Of a stretch of 64,000 nucleotides of DNA, positions 48,610 through 51,680 are shown in pieces. Position numbers and translations under genes: made by a program. The notes under the pieces were generated by a model. The model saw nothing but the letters and a program-made list of their open reading frames with translations, did no database searches and was not told the origin of the DNA. Location of the stretch: positions 186,001 to 250,000 of the forward strand of contig NZ_MSRC01000017.1 of assembly GCF_010093085.1 (NCBI RefSeq). The letters are read 5' to 3'. The stretch's first letter is position 1; the number at the start of each line of letters is the position of its first letter. Source of the DNA: Bacillus sp. SKDU12 (GTDB lineage Bacteria; Bacillota; Bacilli; Bacillales; Bacillaceae).

Positions 48610-49047
48610 ATGAACTTTTACAGAGTTGAACAAATGCCGGGGTTCATTAAATCAGAAATGCAAAAAATTCAAAAGGCCGTACAGCCTTTTATGAAAAAAA
48701 CCGTCGTTTATCGTTTTCTTGCCATTCCGATTGCTGCATTCTCTCTCTTTCAATTAGCTGTTTTTCTTTTTCACGCTTCAGCAGACTGGAAGTCCCTGAT
48801 CAACGCGGGTTTATTCGCTCTTTTGGCGGCGCTGGGACTGGCATTTTTCAAAGAAGCGGGCTATCAGCATAAACAAATTCAAAAAACGATATACATCTAT
48901 ATGCTGAACAGGATTAAAAAGAGCGAAATTCTTTCAGAAGATAGAAAAAACTCCTACACGCAACAGATTAAGGAAGAACCGTTTGCGATGCGGAGTTTTG
49001 TTGAATTTTTGACTGAGGAAGACAGACGCAAAAATTTGTATGAATAA
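48610..49047 (+). CDS. ywnF: DUF5392 membrane protein YwnF
   Basis: 145 residues, MNFYRVEQMPGFIKSEMQKIQKAVQPF, with two membrane helices (about 34-52 and 60-80) flanked by charged cytoplasmic segments; no catalytic motif. ATG 48610 follows GGGGGAGGA. Divergent from clsA. In B. subtilis 168 the next genes in this direction are ywnG and ywnH; here a large extra gene intervenes. Confidence 0.82.
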   Translation: MNFYRVEQMPGFIKSEMQKIQKAVQPFMKKTVVYRFLAIPIAAFSLFQLAVFLFHASADWKSLINAGLFALLAALGLAFFKEAGYQHKQIQKTIYIYMLNRIKKSEILSEDRKNSYTQQIKEEPFAMRSFVEFLTEEDRRKNLYE

Positions 49048-49052
49048 GAACT

Positions 49053-49097
49053 GCACCCGGAATGTTGGGATTTGCCTGACAATCGGGTGTTTTTTAT
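49053..49097 (+). terminator. Terminator after ywnF
   Basis: CACCCG and CGGGTG enclose a 24-base loop and are followed by TTTTTTATTT. Confidence 0.7.
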
Positions 49098-49183: not shown

Positions 49184-50974
49184 TTACTTATTTTCTGGCG
49201 GTAACAGCGTTGCTTTATTGATTTCCTCAACTAGAGATGTCTGATCAATCCATTTGGTAGACACATCGTGATTGATCTTTGAAACGTGCTGGTTTTCTGA
49301 TAAATAATCTCTTATCCGGCTGAAATAGAGCGGTTCGTTTTTGACATCCAGGTCTCGATATATTTGTTCAAACAACTCTAAATCTTTAGGTTCATCAAGG
49401 GTTAAACGCCAAGACGGATAATGAAGTTCTTTTGGAAGGCTGACTTGATTGAGGGAAAATAAGGAAGGGTTGTTTAAAAAATAAAAAGACAAATATTCTG
49501 TATGGGTTAACGGTTTTGGCTGCTGCACAAGCCGCTGAAGAGCTTCAACTGTAATGATATTGCCAGATATTCCTGCTGAACTTGAATAATCCTGGGTATA
49601 ATCGGCTCCTTTTTGTAAGTGACGATCAATTAAATATTGAAGCACTTCAGGTGAAACGGCTGGACAATCACCTGTTACACGGATGATGATATCAGCATTT
49701 GCTAACGCTGCGGCTTCAAGCATTCTTTCTGCTACATTATCCGGATCGCCTCTCACGATTTTGACCTTTCCGTTTAGAGTGTAAGCTTCAAGCGGATCAT
49801 CTTCAGGAAGATTTGAGGTTGCCAATATCACTTCATGAACTTCAGGAACAGCCAGGCAATTGATTAAACAGCGTTCCACAGATGGGATTCCGTAAATCGG
49901 AAGCAATGCTTTTTTCGGCAAGCGAGTCGATTTTAGCCGGCATATTACTGCGATCGCAATTCTTGGACTTTTGATCTCGTTACATGTAATTGGCTGGTTT
50001 ACCGATAAATCAGCAGTTGCTACTTGAGGCAATGCAGCCTCAGCTTGTAAAGGCATCAATGCATTCTCATTTCCGCATCTTTTGTAACTCGTTTTGTCCA
50101 ATGTGATGATTTCTCCCTTTTTGACTGTCCGATTGGCTGTCACACGTATAGATGAATCATACAAATACTTTCTTTCGGATTCATTTACTTCAGTTGAACC
50201 AGCTGCAATTTGAGCCTGCCGGAGTTTTTTCGTCATCAGTTTGAATTCATTGGGCTCTAATGAAGAATAATAATCGAACCCTTTAGCTGTCCGATCTAAA
50301 GTAATATGTTTTTCAATTACAGATGCGCCCGAGAAAAATGCATAGACAGGAAGGTCGGCCGCCAGCGAATGATCGGCGTCGATGTGATCTGCGAATCCAA
50401 TTTGAACCTTGTATCTTTCTTTTAAGTGCTGGATCCGTTGTAGGTTAATATCCTCCAGTTTTGTCGGATATCCTTGAAATCCGTGCATGAGAATAAGCTG
50501 ATTCGCCATATGCTGTTTTACAAGCGACATCATCTGATCGATCTCTTCCTCATACCATCCCCCAATTCCGATAAGCGCAGGTTTCTCTGTCATACCAATC
50601 GTTTTCATTATTTCCGTGGATTGAAGGATAGTCGTTGGAAGCTTTATCCCATCAATATGATGCTGGAAGCGAAAAAAGAGCTCTGCCCCCCATGAATCAA
50701 AAAGATCCACCCATATTTCTAATCCAAGTTTTTTGCCGTAGGCGACACAATTTTTCCACACGTCTTCACTTAAAAACAGCTTCATATACGATTCGTAGGC
50801 AGAAAAACAAGGCGTTGCAATACAGTCATACTTGAACCACTGAAATTTCACACCATCTGCTCCGCTTTCTGCGGCAGCTTTGATGAGTGCTTTAAGATTC
50901 TCCTCTTTTCCCTGATGAGCGTTTGCGATTTCGGCGATGATTTTTACTTTTCCCGGCAAGCTGCTCGTTTCCAC
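49184..50974 (-). CDS. Bifunctional nonulosonate synthase / SpsF-like nucleotidyltransferase
   Basis: 596 residues in three parts. Residues about 10-260 form a NeuB/SpsE-type synthase (EIANAHQG, GADGVKFQ, LMHGFQGYPT, IGFADHIDADHSLA, SVIEKHITLDRTAKGFDYYSSLEPNEF), which joins phosphoenolpyruvate to a six-carbon amino sugar to make a nine-carbon acid. Residues about 275-330 look like the small antifreeze-like (SAF) domain. Residues about 338-520 are an SpsF/CMP-KDO synthetase-like transferase (CRLKSTRLPKKAL, VILATSNLPEDDPL, IVRGDPDNVAERM, IIRVTGDCPAVSPE). SpsE and SpsF are separate proteins in the B. subtilis spore-coat sps operon. I take GTG 50974, eight bases after AAGGAG, rather than GTG 50983 inside that site. 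No other sugar gene is adjacent. Confidence 0.85.
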   Translation of the reverse strand: METSSLPGKVKIIAEIANAHQGKEENLKALIKAAAESGADGVKFQWFKYDCIATPCFSAYESYMKLFLSEDVWKNCVAYGKKLGLEIWVDLFDSWGAELFFRFQHHIDGIKLPTTILQSTEIMKTIGMTEKPALIGIGGWYEEEIDQMMSLVKQHMANQLILMHGFQGYPTKLEDINLQRIQHLKERYKVQIGFADHIDADHSLAADLPVYAFFSGASVIEKHITLDRTAKGFDYYSSLEPNEFKLMTKKLRQAQIAAGSTEVNESERKYLYDSSIRVTANRTVKKGEIITLDKTSYKRCGNENALMPLQAEAALPQVATADLSVNQPITCNEIKSPRIAIAVICRLKSTRLPKKALLPIYGIPSVERCLINCLAVPEVHEVILATSNLPEDDPLEAYTLNGKVKIVRGDPDNVAERMLEAAALANADIIIRVTGDCPAVSPEVLQYLIDRHLQKGADYTQDYSSSAGISGNIITVEALQRLVQQPKPLTHTEYLSFYFLNNPSLFSLNQVSLPKELHYPSWRLTLDEPKDLELFEQIYRDLDVKNEPLYFSRIRDYLSENQHVSKINHDVSTKWIDQTSLVEEINKATLLPPENK

Positions 50975-51107
50975 ATGTCCCACTCCTTAACGTTATTGAG
51001 ACAATCCTGCGGTCATGCAATGTTAGCAGGAGTCACTCCTGATTGAATTATATGCTTGACAAAGCATGCGGTTCTTACACCAGCCTTAGATATAGAAAAA
51101 GTGACAA

Positions 51108-51161: not shown

Positions 51162-51680
51162 CTATTCGAACACCGGATCATCCTCATAATAATAAGAACC
51201 CGGGTCCTCGTACGAATCAGTGTTTTCAAAAGCAGCAATACCGATGACCACAAGCACGAAAATGGCTAAAACGATCCCGATCAGAGCAGTGACGATACTG
51301 GATGCTGCGTAGAACAGCTGCATTTTTATAAACGTTCTGTAATTCTCAAGCATGCTTTCGCCAGCGCTGCCCGCAAGATTTCCTTCGGCCTCCGCAGCAG
51401 CTTTTGCAGAACGCATCAGAAAGACGCCTGAAATAATGAGCAATACGCCCGGGATGGCACCGATCACTGTCATCAAAGCAGACAGTGTGACAAGCGATCC
51501 CATAATGATCAATAAAACCCCTGAAACTTTGCCCCATTTAGCAATGTCTGCTAGCGACTTGACAGCAGAAGGGCTCAATGGGCGGTTTTCGTTTTTTGCA
51601 GGTTCAATCTCCTGTTCAGCAGGAATAATTTCTTCCTTATGATTTTCAATTTCGTTTTCATCTTTATCCAGACTAATCAT
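51162..51680 (-). CDS. ywnG: DUF5362-type membrane protein YwnG
   Basis: 172 residues. An acidic, polar N-terminus (DKDENEIENHKEEIIPAEQEIEPAKNENRP, 1-40) precedes a membrane core IAKWGKVSGVLLIIMGSLVTLSALMTVIGAIPGVLLIISGVFLMRSAKAAAEAEG and MLENYRTFIKMQLFYAASSIVTALIGIVLAIFVLVVIG, followed by a Tyr/Asp-rich tail (YEDPGSYYYEDDPVFE). The core is homologous to YwnC at 45589-45978. The start overlaps the end of ywnH by eight bases, so the two are coupled. Function unknown. Confidence 0.75.
   Translation of the reverse strand: MISLDKDENEIENHKEEIIPAEQEIEPAKNENRPLSPSAVKSLADIAKWGKVSGVLLIIMGSLVTLSALMTVIGAIPGVLLIISGVFLMRSAKAAAEAEGNLAGSAGESMLENYRTFIKMQLFYAASSIVTALIGIVLAIFVLVVIGIAAFENTDSYEDPGSYYYEDDPVFE

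Follow-up and report, generated by a model that had tools for sequence, protein, structure and literature searches.

A NeuB-like/cytidylyltransferase fusion gene between ywnF and ywnG

The window analysed here, a stretch of 64,000 nucleotides from Bacillus sp. SKDU12, contains an open frame on the minus strand (49184-50983 in the ORF listing of the window) in which a gene for a protein of 596 aa (49184..50974, minus strand) starts with a GTG at 50974, and an AAGGAG ribosome-binding site lies 8 nt upstream (50983..50988, minus strand); both signals were read from the DNA. Counted from this start, the protein has the same length as its nine closest homologs among the matches listed. The flanking genes carry Pfam domains of the DUF5392 (48610..49047, plus strand) and DUF5362 (51162..51680, minus strand) families, and we take their names, ywnF and ywnG, from the gene order of strain 168. 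A terminator-like inverted repeat (49050..49095, strand not given) separates the fusion gene from the convergent ywnF. An earlier sequence-only reading had described the gene as standing alone at this place, and the ORF listing indeed contains no adjacent sugar genes.

That reading had also placed a NeuB-type synthase and a transferase in the one gene and had proposed a domain search, in which neither domain was missing. The NeuB-type domain covers residues 30-261 of 596 (50192..50887, minus strand; PF03102, E-value 5.8e-44), and its 150.8 bits against a cut-off of 22.1 place it within the NeuB superfamily. The cytidylyltransferase domain covers residues 343-538 (49361..49948, minus strand; PF02348, CTP_transf_3, E-value 1.1e-21, 78.1 bits against a cut-off of 22.6), and its nucleotide-binding motif RLKSTRL is invariant in 19 out of 19 aligned fusions. 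The NCBIfam equivalogs TIGR03569 and TIGR03586 scored far under their cut-offs (164.3 vs 399.65 and 153.4 vs 340.25 bits, respectively). The SAF-like segment proposed between the two domains (about residues 265-330; 49985..50182, minus strand) stood only in part: the SAF arginine position, R299, is kept in 113 of 114 fusions among the matches listed, but we regard the segment as weak because the fusion protein has no Pfam match there at 1e-3 and PF08666 (SAF) is precomputed in only a few of the listed homologs. An AlphaFold2 model built with 19 homologs reached a mean pLDDT of 88.3 and a pTM of 0.70. Its best Foldseek matches were PseI (8h2c), an SpsE-like protein (3g8r), SiaC and SpsE for the N-terminal part, predicted to share their fold, and the cytidylyltransferase 6oew for the C-terminal part. 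Furthermore, a comparison of the four carriers described below gave dN/dS ratios of 0.11-0.18 in the N-domain and 0.09-0.12 in the C-domain, so both domains are under purifying selection and the fusion is not a chance frame.

The fusion is not SpsE joined to SpsF

The gene had been interpreted as SpsE joined to SpsF, and trees of each domain against these proteins had been suggested. We ruled this interpretation out, since neither domain grouped with its counterpart, the N-domain carries altered residues and SpsE is present in the same genome as the fusion. In a quick-search tree of 94 N-domains, 27 of them from fusions, 26 of the 27 formed a clade apart from SpsE and PseI with a support of 100, and the remaining fusion (P0116) fell among canonical rows with a support of 0; the unfused relatives split into two groups. 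In a quick tree of 53 rows, the C-domain grouped with neither SpsF nor the PseF of the B. subtilis clade, which formed separate groups, and the identity of the fusion to this PseF is only 22-23%.

To characterize the N-domain, we compared 114 fusions (the proteins of 540-640 aa among 120 matches listed of 494) with 47 canonical synthases from the fetched loci. E15, K43, K111, D196-H197 and E221-K222-H223 were each retained in 112-114 of the 114 fusions, and H197 and H223 were kept in all 114. We take the roles of these residues, which include the metal-site histidine pair and the active-site lysine, from general knowledge of such enzymes. At positions conserved in 40-47 of the 47 canonical synthases, fusions have instead A19 for Asn, I116 for Glu, G136-I137 for Ser-Thr, G165 for Cys and A195 for Ser. 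Because several canonical synthase residues are missing, the N-domain may not condense PEP at all.

On these sequence comparisons, the fusion is a member of a separate, widespread family of NeuB-like/cytidylyltransferase fusions. Full-length homologs with 40-67% identity occur in Bacillota and beyond among the matches listed, and relatives were found in Halanaerobium, Mucilaginibacter and archaea, which are not known as spore formers. Among genomes the gene is rare, and the expectation that it would not be shared by all B. subtilis-group genomes was confirmed: 4 of 44 same-genus genomes carry it at full length, this genome included. In a sample of 397 genomes of the order, five gave a match at 1e-60, and in one of these the match covers the C-part only. 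Some family members appear in databases as 'N-acetylneuraminate synthase family protein' or 'spore coat protein'; they have the same full-length architecture, these are names only, and our literature searches found no functional study of proteins so named.

The fusion resembles SpsE and SpsF of B. subtilis, the legionaminic-acid (Leg) synthase and the CMP-Leg synthetase (PMC7439481, PMC9009071), in combining the same two kinds of step and the same domain superfamilies, but SpsE and SpsF are separate proteins of the sps operon whereas the fusion domains represent distinct lineages and coexist with SpsE. In Leptospira a nonulosonic-acid (NulO) synthase is likewise joined to a neighbouring step, although its partner there is a phosphatase domain and not a cytidylyltransferase (PMC3438082). 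In a full-text literature search, mostly of papers outside subscription, none of the papers examined, PMC6137143 and PMC13317340 among them, gave an account of the fusion or of the pseudaminic-acid (Pse) operon at ywnF-ywnG described below. The family defines a second, predicted NeuB-like enzyme type that is open to assay.

Fusions in Pse operons of other Bacillota

We fetched 78 loci with relatives of the fusion and annotated 54 of them. A set of 27 loci (L068-L095 without L073; some stretches are short and three, L090, L093 and L094, are from Bacteroidota) was read for neighbouring genes. The fusion or its C-part was the sole cytidylyltransferase ORF of the locus in 27/27, was directly preceded by Pen-Pal-PseC in 13/27 and was accompanied by a canonical NeuB in 26/27, and 18/27 contained an SpsA homolog of at least 50% or an SpsI-L homolog of at least 40% identity. 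L178 is another Pse operon with a fusion plus sps homologs. Across other Bacillota, then, most fusions lie in Pse operons that have no further cytidylyltransferase, and spore-polysaccharide (sps) homologs are often close by. The fusion occupies the place of PseF in these operons, which hold a separate canonical PseI as well. A Pse operon of Cytobacillus firmus (L068:9995-12526) encodes a single protein of 843 aa in which PseF (54% identity to its B. subtilis-clade counterpart) precedes the fusion (69%), so that the NeuB-like domain is flanked by two cytidylyltransferases. The NeuB-like/cytidylyltransferase pair is often unfused and adjacent in the more distant loci.

Several of these loci bear on the alternative that only the C-terminal cytidylyltransferase works and that the NeuB-like part serves binding or assembly without being catalytic itself. 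The C-part stands alone in the place of the fusion in L088 (Lederbergia) and L092 (Paenibacillus tritici), and it is also alone in L101 and L102. In L084 and L085 the C-domains are 60-63% identical to that of the present fusion and the N-domains, no closer to this fusion's than to canonical synthases, appear to have been exchanged. In addition, a separate canonical NeuB was found by a motif rule in 37 of the 46 loci with the NeuB-like form, and the altered N-domain pocket would fit a non-catalytic part. This alternative is nevertheless rather unlikely in our view, as the N-domain dN/dS of 0.11-0.18 and the two metal-site histidines present in every one of the listed fusions argue against it.

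As a side observation, L095:9965-12631 and L070:11761-13498 contain an aldo/keto reductase and an SDR, either behind the NeuB-like/cytidylyltransferase pair or fused with it. The idea that they always accompany the pair was dropped, both being nearby in only 10 of 54 loci.

A site of replaceable cassettes between ywnF and ywnG

ywnF was found in 26 of 44 genus genomes, and the junction was read in 16 of the 26, in 15 as DNA and in G028 by ORFs. We define the B. subtilis clade as the 12 genomes whose ywnF has at least 85% identity; all 12 junctions were read and fell into four states, namely fusion (four genomes), Pse operon (six), empty (one) and scar (one). The fusion is alone at the junction in this genome, G005, G012 and G020. 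In G007, G010, G023, G024, G033 and G042 its place is taken by a Pse operon of seven genes with the same orientation (L056:6294-13093, and the same junction in L057, L058, L059, L060 and L061). Pse is made by a seven-enzyme pathway in B. thuringiensis (cited in PMC7439481). The PseC, PseG, PseH and PseI calls of G023 exceed the NCBIfam cut-offs, and all seven genes of the other five genomes match those of G023 at 79-98%. The operon of G033 (L061) is closer to that of G023 (L056) than those of the other four are (89-98% vs 79-94%), although G033 branches outside these four in the rpoB tree, which suggests, from sequence identity, transfer of the cassette between species.

The junction is empty in G015 and, outside the clade, in G011, G018 and G030, where the gap measures about 40 bp. 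In G004 the gap is 293 bp and contains the fusion leader together with the last codons and the terminator of the fusion. The leader part matched the fusion leaders of G012 (E-value 9e-11), G020 (5e-8) and G005 (3e-4), with no match reported to the leader of this genome, and the tail part matched the end and terminator of the fusion in G020 (3e-29) and in this genome (1e-22). We take G004 to be strain 168, so the earlier claim that this strain lacks the gene agrees with the scar found there. The place of the gene is not merely unusual, as sister species have an entire Pse operon there. In G004 the spsM-like gene is split into two parts that lie about 134 kb from each other, in line with the SP-beta insertion described in PMC7439481.

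Sister genomes differ in state. In the rpoB tree three sister pairs have unlike states: G005 with the fusion and G007 with the Pse operon (support 93/97), G020 with the fusion and G010 with the Pse operon (100/100), and G015 empty and G023 with the Pse operon (100/100). A tree of six flanking genes recovered the same three pairs. Six state changes were counted over 17 rpoB rows, G013 being scored as empty without a junction reading. Within the B. subtilis clade, then, the cassette at ywnF-ywnG is replaceable, and the finding is more interesting for its place, a junction where the clade exchanges sugar-acid genes, than for the fusion itself. A phage or plasmid origin was considered and rejected: 99 plasmid and 2 phage records match the fusion, all below 60% identity. 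The best match, in a Priestia plasmid, covers 53% of the query at 58.5%, and neither phage match reaches 30%.

Mutual exclusion of Pse and Leg in 12 genomes

In B. subtilis, CMP-Leg for the spore crust is the product of SpsM, C, D, G, E and F (PMC7439481), the sps operon and spsM are controlled by sigma-K (PMC7439481; PMC517825), and a delta-spsE strain is without Leg while delta-spsF accumulates it (PMC9009071). In the six Pse genomes spsC, spsE, spsF and spsG are gone or present as remnants, spsA, spsB and spsI-L remain, and the spsM-like PF02719 gene was not found or was broken in 6/6. In the six genomes without the Pse operon spsC, spsE and spsG are all kept. Pse and Leg therefore exclude each other in 12 out of 12 genomes (6 and 6; Fisher test, 0.0022), although counted by independent pairs only three are supported, all of them opposite in state (sign test, 0.25). 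The six Pse genomes have likely exchanged Leg for Pse as the sugar acid of the crust.

The remaining gene, spsD, is at full length in five of the six Pse genomes and lost in G007; in L171, L172, L173, L174 and L177 it is kept where spsC, spsE, spsF and spsG are lost. Because it is retained in five Leg-less genomes, spsD, counted here as a Leg gene, may have another role.

Loss of spsF in the SKDU12 genome

The precursor sugar genes had been predicted to lie elsewhere, and the sps operon is located on the same contig (C9:134-144 kb), about 91 kb from the fusion. spsA-E, spsG and spsI-L are full length or nearly so in this genome and the spsM-like gene is intact (342 aa). The start region and most of the body of spsF are lost, and a 3' remnant lies at L022:13639-13857. 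A PF02348 scan of the genome gave three matches: one is the fusion (80.8 bits), and the other two are weak (28.0 and 24.6 bits) and lie in ORFs of 456 and 246 aa, which are presumably GlmU and IspD. With spsF deleted and no other PF02348 candidate, the fusion is the only candidate sugar-acid cytidylyltransferase here, and since spsF is the sole missing Leg step, what is missing is a step that the C-domain of the fusion could supply. The other three carriers (G005, G012 and G020) keep spsF, so this genome is a special case and a role in making CMP-Leg is not needed in them.

Leader signals and the predicted timing of expression

The leader of the fusion contains a sigma-K-like element, AC-N16-CATA-N3-T (51047..51072, minus strand), which resembles the sigma-K consensus and occurs at a matching place in 11/11 leaders (four fusions, six Pse operons and the scar). 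A stricter pattern ending in T[AC] had no match in the fusion leader, and a scan of the window with the stricter pattern gave one match vs 2.55 expected, which is chance level. As a control, the regions upstream of four spsA genes gave no match at spacings of 15-17; inspection by eye shows CATAAGATA in these leaders at a spacing of 14 nt.

The leader also bears on whether the nonulosonic acid is destined for flagella or the vegetative envelope and not for the spore. Pse decorates flagella in other bacteria (PMC7439481, PMC13317340), and the fusion leader contains a TATAAT within the stretch CATATAAT. A search for a sigma-70 promoter in this leader found no match, however, and the Pse operons at the junction accompany loss of the crust Leg genes in 6/6 cases and sps homologs occur in 18/27 of the distant loci, which makes a destination outside the spore unlikely.

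Four fusion leaders were compared with three of the six Pse leaders using 300 shuffles: 5 of the 12 pairs beat all shuffles, six were reached by 1-3 of 300 and one by 20 of 300. Of the tails, one fusion against four of the six Pse operons, three out of four beat all 300 shuffles, and that of G033 was reached by 36. Shuffle support for homology between fusion and Pse leaders is thus mixed. Some resemblance at the same site would be expected if the fusion were a leftover, the remains of an earlier Pse operon that are now being lost and no longer have a function. That the gene stands alone, that G004 has already lost the fusion and that C. firmus has PseF and the fusion as one protein within a Pse operon would fit as well. 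Such a leftover is nonetheless improbable, given that the gene is intact in 4/4 carriers with dN/dS values of 0.09-0.18.

A candidate enzyme for the sugar acids of the spore crust

The explanation that we consider best, with a probability of about 0.5, is that the fusion acts on a nonulosonic acid, a sialic-acid-like sugar, of the spore crust; its C-domain would load CMP, and its N-domain would be a second, altered synthase. The activity, the sugar and the timing are what we infer from the data above. The C-terminal domain would use CTP to attach CMP to a nonulosonic acid. In this genome, with spsC, spsD, spsE, spsG and the spsM-like gene intact and spsF deleted, it would be the only candidate for the CMP-legionaminic-acid step. 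For the N-terminal domain we predict another condensing enzyme, one whose acceptor pocket is changed; it may turn a precursor of the sps pathway into a related acid. The sigma-K-like leader would place the enzyme in the late mother cell, alongside the sps enzymes. Against this explanation, the apparent strain 168 lives without the fusion, the sigma-K-like pattern is weak and some relatives come from organisms not known as spore formers. A broader proposal, possible but doubtful, is that the junction acts as a crust sugar-acid switch between Leg and Pse, with the lone fusion as a third state that would make an undescribed acid of its own through its remodelled NeuB site and replace lost SpsF.

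If sister species do switch their crust acid between Leg and Pse, some of them adding a fused enzyme, the charge and adhesion of their spores could differ in a way predictable from one locus. In this regard, B. tequilensis EA-CB0015 was reported to be without Leg genes, and a lower charge was predicted for its spores (PMC10083409). The present data bear on that inference, as the six Leg-less genomes read here, EA-CB0015 not being among them, hold a Pse operon instead.
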